64,000 nt of DNA from Plantactinospora endophytica (GTDB lineage: Bacteria > Actinomycetota > Actinomycetes > Mycobacteriales > Micromonosporaceae): contig NZ_BONW01000004.1 in NCBI RefSeq assembly GCF_016862915.1, positions 1 through 64,000 on the forward strand. Direction: 5' to 3'. The notes under the pieces were generated by a model. That model had not been told where the DNA came from, did not search any database, and was given only the letters and a program-made list of their open reading frames with translations. Positions 52,426 to 64,000 of the stretch are shown here, in pieces; the first letter of the stretch is position 1; every line of letters begins with the position of its first letter. Both the position numbers and the translations under genes were made by a program.

Positions 52426-53022
52426 ATGAACGCCCCGCGCAGGGCCGAGGTTGTCCTGGACTTCGTATGTGTCCATTCCTACCGTGGATTCAGCAGATTC
52501 GTTCGAGCCGCTCGGGTCTATCGCGCCCAGGGCGGCGCGGTCGAGACCGTCTTCCTGCCGTTCCAGCTCCAACCCGACGCGTCTGCCGCCGGTGAGTCGC
52601 TGTTCGAGGTCTGGAAGCGGCAGCGTGGCGAGGACGTCGCGCGTGCCCTCCTGTCCGACGGGTCGTTCGGAATCGCCGACGGTCTCGAACTGAACTTCGA
52701 CCGGGCGGTGTTCGCCAACACGTTCGACGCGCACCGGATCCTTGCCCAGGCGTCCGCGCAGGGAAAGGGCGAGCAGATGGCCGAGCGGTTGTTCCGGGCC
52801 TACTTCACCGACGGGCGCAACCTCGCCGACCCCGACACACTCACCCGACTCGCTGCCGAGACGGGAGTGGTGACCCGCGAGACCGGCGCCGCCGAACTCC
52901 GGGCCGAACTCGACCGGGTACGGCAGCTCGGCGTCCAGCCGCCGAGTTTCCGCTTCGAGGGCGGACCGTTCCTGGAAGGTGAGCAGTCCGAGGAACTGTT
53001 CCACGCGACCCTCACGAGGTGA
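52426..53022 (+). CDS. DsbA/FrnE-family protein with altered active site
   Basis: The 198-residue protein follows the FrnE-like DsbA family throughout (VVLDFVCVHSYRGFSRF, LPFQLQPDA, NTFDAHRIL, LFRAYFTDGRNLADPDTL). The active site is CVHS where CPWC or CPxS is usual, so only one cysteine remains. It could act as a monothiol isomerase or glutathione-type enzyme, and family members occur in polyketide clusters. ATG 52426 has GGAGGAG 10 bases upstream. It may start the second biosynthetic block, but a 271-base gap follows. Confidence 0.8.
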   Translation: MNAPRRAEVVLDFVCVHSYRGFSRFVRAARVYRAQGGAVETVFLPFQLQPDASAAGESLFEVWKRQRGEDVARALLSDGSFGIADGLELNFDRAVFANTFDAHRILAQASAQGKGEQMAERLFRAYFTDGRNLADPDTLTRLAAETGVVTRETGAAELRAELDRVRQLGVQPPSFRFEGGPFLEGEQSEELFHATLTR

Positions 53023-53293
53023 CCGCCGAGCGGACCCACGAAACACCGACGCCTCCGCGCACAGCCCTCCGGCGCCAGGGCGCGATGATGCCTGCCCTGC
53101 ACGAGGCCGACCTGTTACCGTCGCTGCTGGACGAAACGCAGAACGCGCAGTCAAGCCGCCCGGCGTTGTCTCCGAAGCCTTCGGCATGTCGGAGCGGATC
53201 GCGGGCTCGGGTGTCACTGCCGGTTCTGCCTTTGGTCAGGCTGCACAGCTCGGGAATGCACCAGATCCGGTGGCGGTTCGTGGGGGTGTCGCG

Positions 53294-54874
53294 ATGCTTC
53301 GTGATCGGCCGGCTACCTGTGTGACCTGCCCACCCGAGCCCGTCGAACACCTCACCGCCGTCGTACGCCAGGCGCTGGACGAGCCGGACCTGACGATGGA
53401 CTTCTTCCACGCCGGAGGAAACTCGCTCGTCGCGCTGACGCTCGCGCGTACCGCACAACTGCACGGCTTTCGTCTCGGCATCCAGGCACTGCTCCGGGCG
53501 CCGTCGCTGCACCGTTTCGTCCGTGAGACGGCCACCACCGCACCGGCGGTCGTCCGGGCCGGAAGACCGTCCGGCCGGGCACCGCTGCTGCCGTTCCAGC
53601 GGTGGATGCTGAGGCTGGACCAGGAGGCCGCCGCGCGGTTGGCGGTGGTGAGCAGGTGGCGGACCAGCGACCCGGTCGACCCCCGGGACGTGGCCGAGGC
53701 GGTACGCGCGCTGCCGGCGTTGCACGACGCCCTGCGTACCCGCATCGTGCGGGCCGGCGACGGGACGGCCCACCAGGCGGAGACGGGGGAGCGGATGCTC
53801 GACGTCGACGTCGTGGCAGCCGACCGGCTCGGGCCGGCAACGGACGTGCCGGCACTGGCCGCCGCGTCGAGGCGCCGTCTCGACCCGTACGCGGGACCGA
53901 CGACGGTGGCGACCATGCTGGCGGATCCGGCGGGCGGGCACACCGAACTCGTCCTGGTCACCCAGCACGCCGTCAGCGACTTCGTCTCCCACGAGATACT
54001 GATGGCCGAGGTCGAGGCGATCCTCCGTGGCGACGACCCGTCGCGGATGGGTGACACGACCACCAGCCACCACTGGGCGACGCTGCTGGAGCGGTACCAG
54101 ACCTCCGGGGAGATCCTGGCCGAGCAGGAGTACTGGCGCGACGTCCTGCACCGGTCGTGGCGGGGACCGTACGCGCAGCACGCCGCCGTCGGCGAAGGTA
54201 CCGGCCGGCGGGCAACGGCCGAGTTCGACGCATCCGAGCGGGCGGCGGTCGGCGTACTGCGGCGGACCCTGGGGCTGACCCCGACGGAGCTGATGCTCAT
54301 GGCCGCCAGCCTGGTGCTCGGTGACGGCCGGCGGCACCTTCTGGTCGGGATGTCCACGCACGGCCGGTACCCGGCGTTCGACGGCGTCGAACTGCACAGC
54401 ACGGTCGGCTGGTTGAGCTCCAACGTGGCCGTCGCCGTGCCGCCGGTCGGTGCCGACCCGGTGTGGTGGCGGGACCGCCTCCGGGCAGAGTTGGCCGAGA
54501 TCCCGCACCACGGCATCGGCGTCTTCGGTGCGGAGTGGGTACGCCCGCCCGACGAACTCACCCGGCTGCTCGATTCGGTCACGCCGCTGGTCAGCCTCAA
54601 CGTGGTGCACGCCGCGCCCCGGCCGGACCGCCGGTGGCAGGTGAACCTGCGGACGGGTCAGGGGACGGTGGTCCGGCCACGGGGGCCCGCCGTGCGGCTC
54701 TCCGTGCTGACCGGCGACGGGTCGGCCGAGGACGTGCGGGTCAGCGTGGACTACAACGACGCGTACCTCGCCGCGGACGTGGCCACCGGCATCGTCGACC
54801 GGCTCGCCGCCGCGCCCGGCGAGCTTGCCGAGCGCTTCGGCCTCGATGCCGGTGAATCCGGCGTACCGGCATGA
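53294..54874 (+). CDS. Carrier protein-condensation-like didomain (NRPS-type)
   Basis: The 526-residue protein begins with a phosphopantetheine carrier domain (about residues 10-80) with attachment Ser in FFHAGGNSLVAL. A condensation-like domain follows (about 90-515) with core PFQRWMLRLDQE. The catalytic HHxxxDG motif is replaced by TQHAVSDF, so one His and the Gly are lost. It could be a docking, transfer or inactive condensation protein. ATG 53294 has GGGGGTG upstream; ATG 53186 would add 36 residues. Its stop overlaps the HAD gene by 4 bases. No adenylation domain is in the window. Confidence 0.82.
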   Translation: MLRDRPATCVTCPPEPVEHLTAVVRQALDEPDLTMDFFHAGGNSLVALTLARTAQLHGFRLGIQALLRAPSLHRFVRETATTAPAVVRAGRPSGRAPLLPFQRWMLRLDQEAAARLAVVSRWRTSDPVDPRDVAEAVRALPALHDALRTRIVRAGDGTAHQAETGERMLDVDVVAADRLGPATDVPALAAASRRRLDPYAGPTTVATMLADPAGGHTELVLVTQHAVSDFVSHEILMAEVEAILRGDDPSRMGDTTTSHHWATLLERYQTSGEILAEQEYWRDVLHRSWRGPYAQHAAVGEGTGRRATAEFDASERAAVGVLRRTLGLTPTELMLMAASLVLGDGRRHLLVGMSTHGRYPAFDGVELHSTVGWLSSNVAVAVPPVGADPVWWRDRLRAELAEIPHHGIGVFGAEWVRPPDELTRLLDSVTPLVSLNVVHAAPRPDRRWQVNLRTGQGTVVRPRGPAVRLSVLTGDGSAEDVRVSVDYNDAYLAADVATGIVDRLAAAPGELAERFGLDAGESGVPA

Positions 54875-55711: not shown

Positions 55712-56503
55712 TCAGGTTCGGCGCTCCAGGACCACCTGTACGACCCTGTCGTCCTCCGTCGGTGGCTTGGCCTCGTGGAACTCGGTGCACACCAGGCGGG
55801 TACCCAGACCGACCCGGTCGGCCATCCGGGTGATCTGGTCGACGGTGAAGAGCTGCCACTCGAACTCGTCGGTGTCGTCGTCGCCGTCGTAGGACAGACT
55901 CACCCGCAGCCGCGTCCCGTCGAGCACGCTGGCGGAGTGGACGATCCGACCGCCGCGTTCGGTCGTGCCGACCCCCTGGTGTCGGTGCCACCAGTCGGGG
56001 TTGTAGAGGTCGAGCACGACCCGGCCGGCCGGGGTGAGCTTGTCGGCTATGTCGGAGAGCAGCCGCGCGTTCTCGGCCGGCGACAAGAAGCCGAAGCTCT
56101 GCCAGAGGACGACGACCCCGTCGAAGACCCCTGGTACGGCGGCCAGGTCGCGGACGTCGTACCGGAGAAAGGTGGCCCGTTCGGCCCCGGACTCCAGGGC
56201 CCGCCGCCGCGCGTACCCGATCGCCTCTTCGTCGCGGTCGACGCCCACCGCCTGGTAGCCGAGACGGGCCAGCGGCACGACGTGCCGACCACGTCCGGAA
56301 CAGACGTCGAGAATGCGCCGGTACGGCGGATTGGGCAGCCACCGCACCAGGAAGTCGACCTCGTTCCCGGTGTACGGGTGGGTCGCCTCGAACACGTCGA
56401 ACCATCTGCGGGAGTAGTTGTTGGCCTCCACCGCGTCCCTCGGGTCGGCGACTGCGTCGGCACCCAACGTAACGCACGGCCGGCGACGCGGGCGACGCGT
56501 CAT
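55712..56503 (-). CDS. SAM-dependent methyltransferase
   Basis: The 263-residue class I methyltransferase has ILDVCSGRGRHVVPLARLG (motif I), VGVDRDEEAIGYA (motif II), FDGVVVLWQSFGFL (motif IV) and VVLDLYNPDWW. It starts at ATG 56503, overlapping the MFS stop by 4 bases (ATGA), and is last in the four-gene minus-strand operon. The neighbours, nucleoside hydrolase and deoxyribosyltransferase-like proteins, hint at a nucleoside-like substrate, but nothing in the sequence fixes it. Confidence 0.88.
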   Translation of the reverse strand: MTRRPRRRPCVTLGADAVADPRDAVEANNYSRRWFDVFEATHPYTGNEVDFLVRWLPNPPYRRILDVCSGRGRHVVPLARLGYQAVGVDRDEEAIGYARRRALESGAERATFLRYDVRDLAAVPGVFDGVVVLWQSFGFLSPAENARLLSDIADKLTPAGRVVLDLYNPDWWHRHQGVGTTERGGRIVHSASVLDGTRLRVSLSYDGDDDTDEFEWQLFTVDQITRMADRVGLGTRLVCTEFHEAKPPTEDDRVVQVVLERRT

Positions 56504-57870
56504 CGGGTCGAGGGTTCGCCGACCCCGCTGCGGTCCGCCGTGTCCTCCTCCGCCGTGTCGTCCTCCGCCGGCAGCACCGGCAACTCCCGCATCCGACGCA
56601 GTGGCGACAGCAGCACCGGTACGGCGGAGAAGCTGACCCCGACCGCGCTGACCAACAGTGCCGTCCGTGGCCCGAGCCACTGGCCGAGTACGCCGCCGAG
56701 CAGTGCACCGAACGGCATGGTGCCCCAGACGAGGAACCGCATGGTGGCGCTCATCCGACCCAGCAGGCGGTCCGGGGTGAGGCCCTGCCGGAAGGTCACC
56801 TGGGTGACGTTGTAGACGATCATGCTGGCGATGGCCAGTAGCTGACCGAGGGCGGCGATCCACACCGTCGGTCCGGGCCTGGTCAGCGGCACCAGCAGCG
56901 CGAAGAGGCCGACGAGGACCGGGGTGACCCACAGGGTCGGCCCCTGTCCGAGCCGGCCGACGATCCGGCGGTTGACGAACAGCCCGACGATCCCGCCGGC
57001 TCCGCCGACCATCATCACCACGCCGATGGCGCCCCCGCTCAGGTCGAGGCCGCGCGCCAGGAAGACCACGAACATCGCCAGGTATGCCGCCCAGAACAGG
57101 TTGAAGGTCCCCGAGCAGGCGGCGATCGGTCGCAGCAACCGGTGGCCGAGGACGAACCGCAGGCCCTCGCCGATCTCGTGTCGGAGCCGGGTGTCGCGGG
57201 CGCCGCGCCGGGCCGGCTCCCGGTCGCGGATCCGCCCGAGCACGAGTACCGACACGACCACCATGACCAGACTGCCGATCAGTGCACCGACCGCCGTCGC
57301 CGCCTGGACCAGTTGACCGGCGAGCCCGGGGCCGGCCACCTGGGCGACCGATCGGGCGCCCTCCAGCTTCGTGTTGCCTTCGAGGAGGTTGTCCCGGCCC
57401 ACGAGGTGCGGCAGATAGCTCTGGTACGCCACGTTGAAGAACAACCCGGTCACCCCGCGGAGCAGCGCCACGAGGTAGAGCTGCCAGATCGCCAGCGCGT
57501 CGGCCCACCAGGCGAGGGGGATCAACGCCACCACGGCGGCCTGGCCCAGGTTGCTCAGGATCATCACCCTCCGCCGGCTCGCCCGGTCGACCCAGGCGCC
57601 GGCCGGCAGACCGAGCACGAGCAGGGCGAGTTGCGCCGCCATCGACAGCAGCCCGACCTCCAGCTCGCTGGCCTGCAACATCAGCACGGCGACCAGCGGA
57701 ATCCCGAGCGTCGCCACCTGCCCGCCGGCGTGCGACGCGATCGAGGCCACGTACAGCGAACGGAAGTCGGCATCGGCCAGCAGGCCGAACCGTCGTCGGA
57801 ACGGCCCGGCCCGTGCGGGGACGACCGCTGGCGGGGGCCCGGGCGACCGGTCAGGCGGCGGCGAGGACAT
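56500..57870 (-). CDS. MFS transporter, second cluster
   Basis: The 456-residue protein has twelve predicted helices, the GAWVDRASRRRVMILSNLG loop after the second helix, and the MFS_3/enterobactin-exporter pattern (SLYVASIASHAGGQVATLGI; EGNTKLEGARSVAQVAGPGLA). It resembles, but is not a close copy of, the exporter at 40838. The ATG at 57870 was chosen over the longer frame; it overlaps the preceding gene by 20 bases. The last 35 residues are acidic. It probably exports the product of the second block or a nucleoside-like intermediate. Confidence 0.9.
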   Translation of the reverse strand: MSSPPPDRSPGPPPAVVPARAGPFRRRFGLLADADFRSLYVASIASHAGGQVATLGIPLVAVLMLQASELEVGLLSMAAQLALLVLGLPAGAWVDRASRRRVMILSNLGQAAVVALIPLAWWADALAIWQLYLVALLRGVTGLFFNVAYQSYLPHLVGRDNLLEGNTKLEGARSVAQVAGPGLAGQLVQAATAVGALIGSLVMVVVSVLVLGRIRDREPARRGARDTRLRHEIGEGLRFVLGHRLLRPIAACSGTFNLFWAAYLAMFVVFLARGLDLSGGAIGVVMMVGGAGGIVGLFVNRRIVGRLGQGPTLWVTPVLVGLFALLVPLTRPGPTVWIAALGQLLAIASMIVYNVTQVTFRQGLTPDRLLGRMSATMRFLVWGTMPFGALLGGVLGQWLGPRTALLVSAVGVSFSAVPVLLSPLRRMRELPVLPAEDDTAEEDTADRSGVGEPSTR

Positions 57871-58756
57871 CCGGTACCAGGACCTTCGCGCGTGCGACGA
57901 GCTCCTCGTGGCTGGAGAAGTAGGAGACGGCGGCGAGCCGGTTGAGCCGGAAGGCACCGAAGGTGGCGAGGCCGGTCAACGGGTCGCTGGCCCGGGCGAG
58001 TACCACCGTCTTGCGGGCTATCTCGGGTTGGGCGCAGATCATGCCCAGCTCCATCGCCGTGCCGAGCGCTCCGGATTCGAGGATGAGGACAATGACGTCC
58101 GCGTCGGTCATCAGGGACTGCGTACGGTGGTACACGTTGACGATGTGCCGGCGGTCCGCCTTGCAGGTCAGGGCGTACAGGCCCTCCCGCTCGAACGTGT
58201 CGCACAGCAGCAGCGTCGCCTCGATGGGCCGGAGTCGTTCACCCGCCCGGAGCCGTTCCATCGGGGTACCGAGACCCGCCCAGAGGGCCTCGATGTAGTG
58301 CGGCGGGTACGGGACGTAGGAGCCGAGCACCAGTACGGACGTCGTCCGGGCGGGCCGGTGGACGCGGATCGGCACGTCGATGTCGACCGGGCCGAGTCGG
58401 CAGAACGCCTCGACGTCGCGTGGCCGGCTCAACGACCGCTGGCGGGAACCGATGTCGACGCGTACGGCATCCCAGCCGGTGCCCGGGCAAGGGGGCGGGT
58501 CGGCGAGTCGGCTGCGCAGCAGTTCCGTCAGGAGCGTACGGCCGAACCGGTCGAGCAGGCTCAGCGCGATGCGTACGTCGTCGTCCTCGGACCGCAGCGT
58601 GTGCAGGCTCGCCTCGTATCCGAACAGGGGCCAGAGCGCGTCGTGCCGGCCGGCCGGGCGGTGCAGCACGTAGACCGGGGAGAACAGCGCGTGCAGGACG
58701 GAGTCCTTGAGCGCGTCCCCGAGGCGCGGTGGTGCTGGTTCGGACGTCGTGCTCAT
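57851..58756 (-). CDS. Possible nucleoside deoxyribosyltransferase-like protein
   Basis: The 301-residue soluble protein has a C-terminal Rossmann-like half: TSVLVLGSYVPYPP, then MTDADVIVLILESGALGTAM with a following Glu (ELGMICAQ), and KTVVLARASDPLTG. This acidic-rich pattern recalls nucleoside 2-deoxyribosyltransferase-like (or TIR-like) folds. Its start overlaps the nucleoside hydrolase stop (ATGA), supporting a nucleoside role. The N-terminal 120 residues are not recognised. An alternative is an unrelated NAD-consuming enzyme. Confidence 0.55.
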   Translation of the reverse strand: MSTTSEPAPPRLGDALKDSVLHALFSPVYVLHRPAGRHDALWPLFGYEASLHTLRSEDDDVRIALSLLDRFGRTLLTELLRSRLADPPPCPGTGWDAVRVDIGSRQRSLSRPRDVEAFCRLGPVDIDVPIRVHRPARTTSVLVLGSYVPYPPHYIEALWAGLGTPMERLRAGERLRPIEATLLLCDTFEREGLYALTCKADRRHIVNVYHRTQSLMTDADVIVLILESGALGTAMELGMICAQPEIARKTVVLARASDPLTGLATFGAFRLNRLAAVSYFSSHEELVARAKVLVPDVLAAA

Positions 58757-60170: not shown

Positions 60171-60341
60171 GTGCCCGACTATCCGGCACCCGACGACACG
60201 TACGACCTGTACCGGGACCACCTGTACCTGGAAACCGACGACGGGAAGGCGCCCTTCTTCGTGGTGCACGAGACGACAGCGCGACCCTTCAGACACACCC
60301 TGCTCCGGTCCTGGCCGCTCGGCACCGACGGGAGGGCGTGA
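60171..60341 (+). CDS. Candidate 56-residue protein preceding the carrier protein
   Basis: In the third frame, GTG 60171 opens a 56-codon ORF with strongly G/C third positions and protein-like content. It reads VPDYPAPDDTYDLYRDHLYL, then ETDDGKAPFFVVHETTARPF, and ends LRSWPLGTDGRA. Its TGA (60339-60341) overlaps a GTG at 60338 in the carrier protein frame, a typical coupled junction. The frame stays open upstream without a usable start. It is not MbtH (no NxExQ or Trp pattern). It could be a small partner of the carrier or condensation proteins, or a scaffold peptide for the LanB/PEARL-like enzyme downstream. Function unknown. Confidence 0.5.
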   Translation: MPDYPAPDDTYDLYRDHLYLETDDGKAPFFVVHETTARPFRHTLLRSWPLGTDGRA

Positions 60342-60343
60342 CC

Positions 60344-60661
60344 GTGGATCGACCCGGGCCGGTGACCGGCGAGGATCTCGTGGCACTGGTGGTCAGTGCC
60401 TTCCGCACCCACCTGCCGGCGGAGGAGCCGGTGGACGCGGACACCGACTTCTTCGACGCGGGCGGCAACTCCGTCACCGCGGCGCGGGTCGTGGCCCGGC
60501 TCCGGCACGAACTGGACGTGCGGCTGTCGATCCGTGACATGTTCGGTAACCCGACCGCTCGCTCCCTGGCCGAGCGACTCGGCCGCCTCTCCGAGTCGGC
60601 CACACCCGATCCGGGCCGCCGGGCGCGGCGTCCGGCCGACGGCCGGAGCATCACACGTTGA
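60344..60661 (+). CDS. Free-standing carrier protein (PCP/ACP)
   Basis: The 105-residue protein is a phosphopantetheine carrier with attachment Ser in FFDAGGNSVTAARVV and helices matching NRPS peptidyl carriers (LSIRDMFGNPTARSLAERLG). The tail is Arg-rich and disordered. GTG 60344 has GGAGGG seven bases upstream; GTG 60338 is also possible and would overlap the small ORF stop. It overlaps the condensation gene by 4 bases (TTGA). It probably carries an aminoacyl group for the condensation or PEARL-like enzyme next to it. Confidence 0.92.
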   Translation: MDRPGPVTGEDLVALVVSAFRTHLPAEEPVDADTDFFDAGGNSVTAARVVARLRHELDVRLSIRDMFGNPTARSLAERLGRLSESATPDPGRRARRPADGRSITR

Positions 60662-61956
60662 CCGCCCGCAACAGTGCCGTACCCACCAGCCGCATCGGCG
60701 CCGCACGCTTCCCGACCACCGGGGCGCAGGCCGGGCTCTGGTTCGCCGCACAGCGGCTGGGCGACACCTCCGCGTACCACGTCGTCATCGCGTTCACGAT
60801 CGAGGGCGACGTGGACGGGACACGGTTGGCGGACGCCTGGCGCGGGCTCGTCGAGCGCACCGCGATCCTCGGCCTGCGGACCGCGCTCGACGACGACGGG
60901 CAGGTGGTGCAGTGGTTCGCCGGAGCGCCGGACACGGTGTCCTGGTTCGCCTCCCCGGTGTCGCCGCCGGACGGGCTGGACGTCGATCCCGCGTTCCTGC
61001 CGTACGTGCTGGCGCCGTTCGACCTCGACGGCGGCGAGTTGTGCCGGATCGTCGCCGCGCCGACCGCCGACGGGCGCACGGTCGCCGTACTGGTGCTCCA
61101 CCACCTGCTCGTCGACGGCACCAGCCAACCCGTGATCGCCGAGAGGTTCGCCCGTTGCCTGCTCGGTGAGCCGGTCGAGCCCGCCGGCCCGGAGCGGTAT
61201 CTCGAACTCGTCGAGCTGGTACGCCTGGCCGAGGTTGCCTGCCTGGCACGGGACCGGGAACGGTGGATCAGTCGGACCGTCGACCGGCTCGGCGCCGGGT
61301 GGTGCTGGCCGCCCACGGTCCCGGGCATCGCCGGGCACCTACGACACCGCCTGGACCGGACCGGCGTCGACCGGCTGCGGTCCGTCGCGGAGCGGGCCGG
61401 CGGAAGCCTCTTCCTCGGGCTCGTCGGGGCGGTACACCGGAGCCTGTCGGCACTCGGCTGGGACCGTACCGTCGTCAGCGTGGCGGCCTCGGCCCGGCCG
61501 CGTGGGGGTGGCCACGACCGCGTCGTCGGCGCCTTCGTCAACCAGGTACCGCTGGTGGCCGTCCACCGGCCGCACGACTCCCTGGCCGACCTGCTCGCCC
61601 GGGAGGTGCCCGGCTGGCGGACCGATCTGGCCGCGCGGGCACTGCCGCAGGCCGGAGTCGCCGACGACGCACGGCTCGCCCGGGTGGGCCCGAATCTCAA
61701 CCGGGTCATCGTCTCCGAGCGCCGGTCGGCCGGCCCGACGGCATACCGGTGGACCGGCTCCGGGGCGGTCCGCTCGGTGTCGGCGGAACTGTTCGTCCGT
61801 GGCTACGAACCGAAGGCCGACATCGGGGTGCGGTTCGTCCGGCACTCCGGCCACGTGGCGTACGACGTCGAGTGGTCCGCGCGGTTACCACCGGAGCTGG
61901 CGGAGCGGCTGCCCACGGTCCTCGCGGCGGCGTTGGCGGGCGGCGATGACCGCTAG
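60658..61956 (+). CDS. Free-standing condensation-domain protein
   Basis: The 432-residue protein is a single NRPS condensation domain: TTGAQAGLWFAAQRLGDTSA (C1), VLVLHHLLVDGTSQ with intact HHxxxDG (C3), VVGAFVNQVPLVAVH (C5) and a late RLPPELAERLP. It should form an amide or ester between a carrier-bound acyl group and an acceptor. The start is TTG 60658, overlapping the carrier stop by 4 bases. Its own stop overlaps the LanB-like start by 11 bases, so carrier, condensation and LanB-like proteins are translated together. Confidence 0.9.
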   Translation: MTARNSAVPTSRIGAARFPTTGAQAGLWFAAQRLGDTSAYHVVIAFTIEGDVDGTRLADAWRGLVERTAILGLRTALDDDGQVVQWFAGAPDTVSWFASPVSPPDGLDVDPAFLPYVLAPFDLDGGELCRIVAAPTADGRTVAVLVLHHLLVDGTSQPVIAERFARCLLGEPVEPAGPERYLELVELVRLAEVACLARDRERWISRTVDRLGAGWCWPPTVPGIAGHLRHRLDRTGVDRLRSVAERAGGSLFLGLVGAVHRSLSALGWDRTVVSVAASARPRGGGHDRVVGAFVNQVPLVAVHRPHDSLADLLAREVPGWRTDLAARALPQAGVADDARLARVGPNLNRVIVSERRSAGPTAYRWTGSGAVRSVSAELFVRGYEPKADIGVRFVRHSGHVAYDVEWSARLPPELAERLPTVLAAALAGGDDR

Positions 61957-64000
61957 CCCGGTGCCCAGGACGAACCTGGCGTCGAACGAACCGCACTGGA
62001 TCCCGCTGGGTACCGGCGGATGGCGCATGTGGCGGTTGGCCATGCTCCGCAGCGCCGGTTTCCCGGCGGATCTCGTCCCGCCCGGCGATCCGGCGCTGGT
62101 GGCCAATCTTCCCACCGACGGGTCCGGAGCGACCGACGGATCCGGAGCGACCGGCCGGTCCGGAGCGGTCGACGACGCCTTCCGGGCGGCGTACCGGGAC
62201 GCCTTCCGGCGGGCCGCCGCGCACCTCGCCGCGACCGCGCGGGATCCGCTGTTCCGGGAGGCCGTGGCGTGGCAGTCACCGCACCTGATCCCGCTGTGCC
62301 TGGACAAGGTGACCGCCGACGCCGAGTTCACCGGTGACACGCCACCGAGCAAGCCTCGCCAGCGGCTGCTCACCGTCGCGAGCTACGCGCAGCGGTACGC
62401 GCTGAAGAACGAGACCATCGGATTTTTCGGGCCGGTCGCGTGGGCACGGTTCGAGCCGGACGCGGCCCCGCTGACGGTGTACGGCGGTGAGCACCTGATC
62501 AGCCGTCGCACGGTCCACTTCGAGGTGTGGGCCGTCGACGCGTTGGCCCGACGCCTCTCCAGGGATCCGCTGGTGGTGCCGTGGCTGCGGCCGAGGCGCG
62601 CACCGCAGAACGTGTTCTGGCCGACCACCGCAACGGTGACCGACCCGCTGGGTCGTACCAACGCATTGTCGTCGGACGAGGCGCGGCTGCTGGCGCTCGC
62701 GTGCGGAACGAGGACGATCCGGGACATCGCGGCCGAGCTTGCCGCGACCGACGACCTGGCGGCGATCCGAGACAGCCCGGCAGAGCGCGGCGGCCCGGCA
62801 GACCGAGACGGCGCGGCAGGGCGCGGCTGCGGTACGGACCGGGACGACGCGGCAGGACGCTGCGGCGAGACGCGGCGGTCGGTGTCGGAGGTGCATCGGC
62901 TGCTGCTCGCCCTACAGGAGCGCGAACTGGTGCAGGTGGACCTGACCGTGGAGGTGTCCGCCTGGCCGGAGTCCTCGCTGCGCGAGGCGCTGGCCGCGAT
63001 CCCGGACCGGCGGGCCGGCGAGCACGCGCTGGCGCAGCTCGACGAACTGGAGCGGACCCGGGCGGCGGTGGCCAAGGCTGCCGGCGACCCGGACCGGTTG
63101 ATCGCGTCGTTGAGCGAACTCGACCGTACGTTCCGGCGGACGGCCGGGGCGGACACGGCCCGCCGGCCAGGCGAGATGTACGCCGGCCGCACCGTCGTCT
63201 ACGAGGACACGTCGCGCGACGTCGGGGCGGTCGTCGGCGCTGCGGTGACCGACGAACTCGCCCGACCGCTCGAACTCGTGCTCCAGAGCACGCGCTGGTT
63301 CGTCACCCAGGCGGCCGACCGGTACGCCGACCGGTTCCGCGAACTCTACGAGCGGATTCGCGCCCGGACGGGCCGGGAACGGGTACCGCTGGGCCGGCTG
63401 TACAGCGCCGCCGCGCCGGATCTCGCCTTCTCCTTCCACGGCCCACCGCCGATCCTGGTGCCGCTGGTCGAGGGAATGCAGCAGCGCTGGCAGGAGGTGC
63501 TGGCCGTGCCGGAGGGCGGCGGCGCGCACCACGTCGAGTCCCGGCGCATCCGTGCCGCCGTGGCGCGACAGTTTCCCGCCGAGCCTCCGCGTTGGTCGGC
63601 GGCGGCCCGGCAGTCACCCGACGTGATGATCGCCGCGAGCGATCCAGCGGCCGTGGCCCGTGGCGAGTACCAGTTGGTGCTCGGTGAGATCCACATCGCC
63701 ACGAACGGACTGCAGACCCGGCCGATGGTGCTGCACGCTCCGGACAGTGAGTGGCTGCTGGCTGCGGAGGCGACCGACCATCCGGGCCGGATCGTGGGTA
63801 CGCCGTCGAAGAGTTCTCCCGGTGTCAACTCCCGCACCAACCCGTCGGCGCTGCTGTCGCGTCGGTTCCGCTACTGGACGATGCATGCCGATCCGGCGGT
63901 GTTCGCGGACGAGGCGATTCCGGCAGCCGCGCTCCAGGTCGTACCCTCCGGCGACCGGCTGACCGTCGTGTCCGAACTCGACGGTCGGGAGTTCGACCTG
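61946..64000 (+). CDS. Second LanB/PEARL-like protein, cut by the window end
   Basis: From ATG 61946 the frame stays open for 685 codons to the last base, so the C-terminus is missing. It resembles the N-terminal domain of lantibiotic dehydratases and peptide aminoacyl-tRNA ligases: WRMWRLAMLRSAGFPADLV near the start, then VASYAQRYALKNETIGFFGP, which keeps the canonical KNExxxFFGP motif. VLGEIHIATNGLQ and LLSRRFRYWT occur later. A repetitive Asp/Gly/Arg stretch (about residues 275-310) looks inserted. It follows the carrier and condensation genes with an 11-base overlap. I infer aminoacyl-tRNA-dependent extension of a scaffold, perhaps the carrier or the 56-residue protein. Confidence 0.8.
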   Translation, partial: MTASPVPRTNLASNEPHWIPLGTGGWRMWRLAMLRSAGFPADLVPPGDPALVANLPTDGSGATDGSGATGRSGAVDDAFRAAYRDAFRRAAAHLAATARDPLFREAVAWQSPHLIPLCLDKVTADAEFTGDTPPSKPRQRLLTVASYAQRYALKNETIGFFGPVAWARFEPDAAPLTVYGGEHLISRRTVHFEVWAVDALARRLSRDPLVVPWLRPRRAPQNVFWPTTATVTDPLGRTNALSSDEARLLALACGTRTIRDIAAELAATDDLAAIRDSPAERGGPADRDGAAGRGCGTDRDDAAGRCGETRRSVSEVHRLLLALQERELVQVDLTVEVSAWPESSLREALAAIPDRRAGEHALAQLDELERTRAAVAKAAGDPDRLIASLSELDRTFRRTAGADTARRPGEMYAGRTVVYEDTSRDVGAVVGAAVTDELARPLELVLQSTRWFVTQAADRYADRFRELYERIRARTGRERVPLGRLYSAAAPDLAFSFHGPPPILVPLVEGMQQRWQEVLAVPEGGGAHHVESRRIRAAVARQFPAEPPRWSAAARQSPDVMIAASDPAAVARGEYQLVLGEIHIATNGLQTRPMVLHAPDSEWLLAAEATDHPGRIVGTPSKSSPGVNSRTNPSALLSRRFRYWTMHADPAVFADEAIPAAALQVVPSGDRLTVVSELDGREFDL

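Follow-up and report, generated by a model that had tools for sequence, protein, structure and literature searches.

The 64,000 nt analysed here (the window) are the first 64,000 nt of a 370-kb contig, NZ_BONW01000004.1, in the 9.68-Mb genome of Plantactinospora endophytica. At the downstream edge of the window four plus-strand open reading frames (ORFs) run in series with overlaps of 4, 4 and 11 nt and encode a 56-residue protein, a free-standing peptidyl carrier protein (PCP), a free-standing condensation (C) domain (P0006) and a protein (P0005) that resembles the peptide aminoacyl-tRNA ligases (PEARLs) and the lantibiotic dehydratases (LanB). The coordinates bear out the overlapping series described in the original prediction, which was made from the window alone, and Pfam supports the PCP, C and LanB-like assignments. 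Past the window the series continues with a free-standing adenylation (A) domain, which begins 21 bases after the end of the PEARL gene, and with a gene for a relative of the cyclase NcmC, which overlaps the A gene. The set (PCP, C domain, PEARL, A domain and NcmC-like enzyme) consists of five separate proteins within about 7 kb, mostly translationally coupled. The features are as follows.

60171-60341, plus strand: 56-residue ORF, GTG start, stop overlapping the PCP start; no Pfam or NCBIfam match
60338-60661, plus strand: free-standing PCP of 107 aa with DAGGNSVTAA, GTG start; PF00550, E 6.9e-16
60658-61956, plus strand: free-standing C domain (P0006) with LHHLLVDG; PF00668, E 2.9e-24
61946-64456, plus strand, cut by the window at 64000: PEARL-like/LanB-like protein (P0005) of 836 aa with KNETIGFFGP, ATG start; PF04738, E 2.8e-26
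64478-66142, plus strand, beyond the window: free-standing A domain of 554 aa; TIGR01733, E 4e-90, and PF00501, E 1.4e-62
66136-67002, plus strand, beyond the window: NcmC-like cysteine hydrolase/cyclase of 288 aa with GYCAG; PDB 6e6t, E 2e-15; no Pfam match

P0005 is incomplete in the window, as the original prediction had it, but the gene is complete at 64456 and the added part brought no elimination domain. The full-length protein matched PF04738 (Lant_dehydr_N) with 92 bits against a cut-off of 28, and the elimination domain PF14028 was found neither in it nor in P0002, a second PEARL-like protein of the window described below, nor in the neighbouring proteins scanned, among which LanC was also absent. 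A genome-wide search for PF14028 gave no match, though no positive control gave signal either, and the presence of PF04738 in 36/36 aligned rows and of PF14028 in 0/36 is a weak test, the rows having been trimmed to the matched region. In BhaBC, binding of ATP, of the acceptor carboxylate and of the 3' end of the tRNA has been ascribed to residues R34, Y205, R208, D558, E575, H577, R715, E813 and R815 (PMC11962472, PMC12945691). Their counterparts in P0005 are R35, Y147, R150, D559, E581, H583, R712, E825 and R827, a correspondence drawn by motif and spacing, as the aligned rows included no characterised PEARL; each of the nine was present in 102 to 105 of 105 aligned rows.

With the family profile the LanB glutamylation domain TbtB (6ec7) was matched at E 5.3e-14; a weak match (E 0.0023, profile positions 203-273) was to a PqqD-like RiPP recognition element (RRE) fold. 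The PqqD/RRE-like stretch falls at an estimated 225-330 in P0005, though the cluster has no recognised leader peptide. Residues 1-684, which the window covers, gave a confident AlphaFold2 model (pLDDT 85.3, pTM 0.85). The model had nine PDB matches with E values up to 0.001, all of them LanB enzymes (TbtB, MibB, MadB, GodF and NisB), the best being TbtB (E 9e-12, TM 0.53 by query length). This fold match cannot by itself tell PEARL from LanB, since according to PMC12945691 no PEARL had yet been solved by crystallography. The profile and structure comparison proposed with the original prediction returned LanB glutamylation domains and no elimination domain. With the ATP- and tRNA-site residues kept and a LanB-type fold, the sequence supports the proposal that P0005 is a PEARL, a predicted ligase rather than a dehydratase, which probably takes its amino acids from tRNA. 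Databases label such proteins lantibiotic dehydratases.

A partnership between a PEARL and a nonribosomal peptide synthetase (NRPS) has a precedent. Using heterologous expression together with gene inactivation for the sna (threopeptin) cluster from Stackebrandtia nassauensis, Yu and van der Donk (2024) showed that Thr is added to the product of an NRPS and polyketide synthase (PKS) by the PEARL-like SnaE; by their count some 2000 NRPS/PKS clusters have PEARL genes of this sort (PMC11212132). Apart from the 2023 preprint and the 2024 paper, the literature matches listed contained no further work on a PEARL associated with an NRPS, subscription journals being mostly uncovered, and a search for lantibiotic dehydratase together with Dieckmann gave nothing related by title.

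PEARL matches at E 1e-60 or better were found in 56 of 200 sampled family genomes, the own genome included. Scanning of the contigs with the single protein had given no relatives; a later scan that started from an alignment of 7 rows confirmed 313 relatives, and the best 80 (79 loci) were retained. An A, C or carrier (T) domain lay nearby in 71/79 of these loci (A in 67, C in 63, carrier in 68), and in 68/79 when C or T alone were counted; the tallies use mechanical ORFs on contigs of which some are short, acyl-CoA ligases may be among the A matches, and the counts stand without a background rate for random actinobacterial loci. The loci without A, C or T were L099, L113, L126, L130, L138, L144, L157 and L158. 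Together with the sna report (PMC11212132), these loci contradict the original prediction, which held that carrier proteins do not accompany PEARLs.

Inspection of gene order revealed PCP-C-PEARL in L104 and L108, which are two contigs of one Streptosporangiaceae metagenome-assembled genome, C-PEARL-A-PCP in Streptomyces sp. NK08204 (L103), C-PEARL in L109, a PEARL followed by a free C domain in L114, and a PCP, a PEARL and a C domain in Kitasatospora sp. MAP5-34 (L110); a free A domain also occurs in the similar sets L103 and L156. L104, L108 and L103 share with the present locus a single operon-like series, but their C domains are 19-20% identical to P0006, and L104 and L108 are short contigs. 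The order PEARL-PCP-CA-NcmC-like was found in Micromonospora orduensis (L100) and M. inaquosa (L102), whose PEARLs are 43% and 41% identical, respectively, to the window part of P0005, and the NcmC-like protein of the G172 locus, which matches the Micromonospora clusters, is 33% identical to the local one. PEARL, free PCP, C, A and NcmC-like enzyme occur together in both clusters, which differ from the present locus in that C and A are fused and that a T-C-A-T NRPS and a large carrier-bearing protein lie upstream. In M. inaquosa the latter is by Pfam a PKS with ketosynthase (KS), acyltransferase (AT), ketoreductase (KR), dehydratase (DH) and carrier domains, so that the layout reads T-C-A-T, KS-AT-KR-DH-T, PEARL, free PCP, C-A, NcmC-like (PEARL and NcmC-like by phmmer); that of M. 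orduensis is the same as judged by size and hits.

The tree (quick maximum-likelihood, 105 rows) placed P0005 in a clade of 31 rows with an SH-aLRT support of 100, which holds 7/9 of the rows labelled for the motif EHHxxHDG and 4/4 of those labelled for an NcmC-like gene; within this clade P0005 groups with L110, L111, L101 and L175 (support 97). PEARL-like relatives were also seen beyond the Actinomycetota (Acidobacteriota, Chloroflexota and a cyanobacterium; L117, L119, L128, L151, L159 and others), mostly with NRPS-type domains near.

EHHxxHDG is the signature of ureido-forming C domains, apparently sufficient and necessary for ureido formation on current examples, and such a domain is proposed to leave the free carboxylate that SnaE extends (PMC11212132). 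The free C domain carries LHHLLVDG and the C-like domain encoded at 52979 (see below) TQHAVSDF, and the signature is in neither. It was found in the ORFs of 8/79 relative loci (L101, L105, L111, L115, L116, L121, L174 and L175) and also in L085; L101 and L175 carry EHHLVHDG, the motif reported for SnaA (PMC11212132). Among the loci examined, the C domain nearest to P0006 was that of Kitasatospora sp. MAP5-34 (L110), with 31% identity, and in 250 family genomes, of which the best 7 candidates per genome were scored, P0006 had no relative at E 1e-30 other than itself. In L085 (12888-19901) the open frame of an NRPS with EHHFIHDG continues into a PEARL domain, possibly a fusion of a ureido-forming NRPS and a PEARL.

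The A domain scored 302.5 bits against TIGR01733 (cut-off 317.4), and its best solved chains were 8k4r, linear gramicidin synthetase and 6akd. The original prediction had reported no A domain, which holds inside the window; the absence is a window-edge effect, since the domain lies just beyond the end of the PEARL gene. It had also named an A domain outside the window that loads both carriers as evidence against its proposal of tRNA-derived loading; such a domain is present, which counts in part against the proposal, and the loading of both carriers by it is a possibility. Since the A domain is present, loading of the PCP from tRNA is unnecessary.

The best solved relative of the protein at 66136-67002 was the Dieckmann cyclase NcmC (6e6t), and the local homologue keeps Cys87 (GYCAG) and Asp114 (FDP). 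The position that we take to be that of the NcmC catalytic His differs here, and a His at that position is not conserved in the NcmC-like subfamily; another His, residue 241 (EEHD), is common to many, not all, of the relatives. No ketosynthase match was found on the 370-kb contig and, unlike for NcmC, no PKS. Dieckmann chemistry is doubtful because the His at this presumed catalytic position and a ketosynthase on the contig are both lacking, though a beta-ketoacyl substrate might be provided by genes in another part of the genome. NcmC-like relatives adjoin PEARLs in L051, L053/L100, L102 and L106, and at E 1e-22 the search of 345 genomes of the class returned only the protein itself.

The 56-residue ORF looks coding: its codon score was 0.58 per codon, in-frame control windows ranged from 0.31 to 0.79 (5-95%, n 242), and 0/484 out-of-frame windows scored as high. 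Its only match in 250 family genomes at E 0.01 was itself, and no relative was found at E 1e-3 among ORFs of at least 40 aa in the 79 named relative loci. The original prediction had suggested looking for the same four-gene order in other genomes; PCP-C-PEARL recurs in L104 and L108, but relatives of the small ORF were absent from the 79 loci.

From the gene content, gene order, families and conserved residues set out above we infer a series of reactions, their order, their substrates and a product. With moderate confidence, we read the set as a small NRPS-type cluster of split functions in which an NRPS-associated PEARL of the SnaE kind would extend a free carboxylate with a tRNA-borne residue. 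The free A domain would activate an amino acid and load the free PCP. From there the free C domain would transfer the acyl group to an amine, which could be provided by a second carrier (the T-C protein at 52979) or by a soluble amino acid. Since a PEARL needs a free carboxylate and there is no ureido-forming C domain, a soluble amino acid acceptor, used by the free C domain by analogy with the fatty acid amide systems, would be the simplest supply; such an acceptor would leave its carboxylate free. Alternatively, the carboxylate could be supplied by hydrolysis by the NcmC-like enzyme. In PEARL chemistry ATP activates the acceptor carboxylate, the amine of aminoacyl-tRNA attacks and the tRNA is hydrolysed off (PMC12945691); the PEARL here would accordingly be predicted to phosphorylate the carboxylate with ATP, after which the aminoacyl-tRNA amine would attack and the tRNA be hydrolysed off, which would lengthen the product by one residue without recourse to thioester chemistry. 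Release or cyclisation of the carrier-bound part would fall to the NcmC-like cysteine enzyme.

Comparison with known systems showed partial likeness to each. As in sna, there are a LanB_N protein lacking the elimination domain, NRPS parts, a separate release enzyme and no recognised precursor peptide, and the P0005 clade includes PEARLs of EHHxxHDG clusters, SnaE itself being likened here by its published description. In sna the NRPS is bimodular (A-T-Curea-A-T) and is accompanied by a PKS and an MbtH-like protein (PMC11212132); here the functions are separate proteins, EHHxxHDG is lacking, no ketosynthase was found on the contig, the release enzyme is NcmC-like, and no protein scanned in the neighbourhood matched MbtH. 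Pathways to fatty acid amides use a free A domain, an acyl carrier protein (ACP) and a C domain (OaaA, OaaACP and OaaC), which act with a small amine acceptor (PMC13142362); these too are free-standing, but the acyl donor is a fatty acid and the available text mentions no PEARL. TglB, BhaBC and AmmB (PMC11962472, PMC12945691) belong by motif to the same enzyme family, with the ATP- and tRNA-site residues conserved, and extend a ribosomal scaffold peptide, none of which was recognised here unless the 56-residue ORF is one.

Several observations weigh against the reading of P0005 as a SnaE-like ligase in a split NRPS. As the C domain lacks EHHxxHDG, the one carboxylate source shown for an NRPS PEARL is absent here, and the soluble acceptor is an idea borrowed from a distant system. 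The modelled fold does not separate a PEARL from a glutamylating LanB; P0005 forms a long branch, which makes its placement in the tree uncertain; and the substrate and product of the cluster are predictions. The NcmC-like enzyme lacks a His at the position we presume to be catalytic, with no ketosynthase on the contig. Its gene occurs in 3/79 PEARL loci, and of ten NcmC-like matches in the 250 genomes three shared a 20-kb stretch with a PEARL (own, G158 and G172) and seven did not, two of these (G007 and G182 contig C4) having a PEARL some 20 to 30 kb away; NcmC-like proteins are therefore not tied to PEARLs.

Among other explanations, a tetramate-type pathway, in which an acyl chain from elsewhere would sit on the PCP, the NcmC-like enzyme would close it by Dieckmann condensation and the PEARL would decorate it, draws on the NcmC homology and on M. 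inaquosa, where a KS-AT-KR-DH-T PKS precedes the PEARL, PCP, C-A and NcmC-like genes; with no ketosynthase match on the contig and no conserved His at the presumed catalytic position in the subfamily, it is unlikely. A threopeptin-type pathway, in which one C domain would form a ureido link between two amino acids and the PEARL would extend the carboxylate exposed by chain reversal, as SnaE does, gains from the grouping (97) of P0005 with PEARLs from loci in which the NRPS has EHHxxHDG (L101, L175 and L111), and from the SnaA motif EHHLVHDG in L101 and L175 (PMC11212132). That signature, apparently necessary according to the same paper, is replaced by LHHLLVDG and TQHAVSDF in the two local C domains and was seen in 8/79 relative loci, and we consider this pathway quite improbable here. 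A route that dispenses with ureido reversal, in which the PEARL would act on a substrate held by the 56-residue protein (docked on the RRE-like fold) or by a carrier and the free C domain would then take over the extended product, is likewise given little credence.

PqqD/RRE-like folds bind leader peptides in RiPP enzymes, and the PEARL family has such a stretch, which, with the coding-like codon use of the 56-residue ORF, could speak for that ORF as a ribosomal scaffold peptide to which the PEARL would add C-terminal residues before the product passed to the NRPS-like proteins. The RRE-like stretch does not point to the ORF, because it is found throughout the aligned family; the ORF has no relatives in 250 family genomes or 79 named loci, and no peptidase was found among the neighbouring proteins scanned. 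Its 56 aa are near the size of the 50-residue TglA scaffold (PMC9016710), and the scaffold role is nevertheless very doubtful. Direct loading or extension of a carrier by the PEARL with a tRNA-borne amino acid, as the original prediction proposed from the overlap of the PCP, C and PEARL genes, did not hold up: the chemistry reported for PEARLs needs a free carboxylate and forms no thioesters (PMC12945691), where a carrier offers a thiol or thioester, the free A domain is next in the series, and the similar sets L103 and L156 also have one. Discovery of the A domain beside the PEARL gene removed it from first place among the readings, and it is now highly improbable. That P0005 is the glutamylation half of a class I lantibiotic dehydratase in a lanthipeptide or thiopeptide pathway would agree with its PF04738 match, the LanB folds closest to it and its database label; PF14028 was found neither in the full-length protein nor in the genome (the latter search without a positive control), the proteins scanned included no LanC, and the ATP-site residues are kept. 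The lanthipeptide reading was rejected on the lack of PF14028 and LanC, and this explanation can hardly be credited at all. The NRPS-associated PEARL acting on a free carboxylate is the reading retained.

Two further genes upstream of the series may belong with it.

52979-54874, plus strand: carrier and C-like didomain (T-C) protein with TQHAVSDF, true start probably later; PF00550, E 1e-4, and PF00668, E 1e-16
56500-57957, minus strand: major facilitator superfamily (MFS) transporter between two plus-strand gene groups; PF07690, E 8e-29

The T-C protein is possibly part of the same pathway; its best relative (4e-23) among the PEARL-chosen loci examined was an NRPS in an Asanoa PEARL locus. 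The MFS transporter is a possible exporter of the cluster, as judged from its position. Genes past 67 kb appear unrelated from their translations read by eye. No Rfam family reached its gathering score in the locus record L009, and no tRNA gene was found in 30-64 kb.

Other PEARL-like places were noted. P0002 (36922-39459 of the window) is highly diverged, with KAESAGHAGP replacing KNETIGFFGP and the nine ATP- and tRNA-site residues kept. Its neighbours are an ATP-grasp ligase, an apparent amidinotransferase (by eye) and TauD, PALP and ornithine-cyclodeaminase-like genes, and they resemble a diaminopropionate pathway. The same genome has a LanB_N-type place beside PKS/NRPS genes (C51:55530-57605) and a LanB_N-type match below the family cut-off (C28:243885-244109). 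On Streptomyces plasmids, the order PEARL, A, pyridoxal phosphate (PLP) enzyme, ACP, PEARL occurs in L011 (8728-16328) and L015 (8695-16256), with a LanM gene a few kb away, and L014 (11945-21626) has a PEARL-like gene with a methylaspartate mutase, an ACP, an AMP-binding protein, an ATP-grasp protein and a free C domain; two-PEARL loci with A and carrier were also seen in L160 and L169-L172.

The partnership of a PEARL with an NRPS has been known since 2024, and what is unusual here is that the functions are separate proteins, that the ureido signature is lacking and that the release enzyme is NcmC-like. A ureido-forming C domain is the carboxylate source of the NRPS-associated PEARL characterised in the papers found, and its signature was seen in the ORFs of 8/79 relative loci. 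Where the carboxylate comes from in the remaining PEARL loci is a question that this compact set suits, by reconstitution, and the answer would help to predict the products of many NRPS clusters whose PEARLs are labelled lantibiotic dehydratases.

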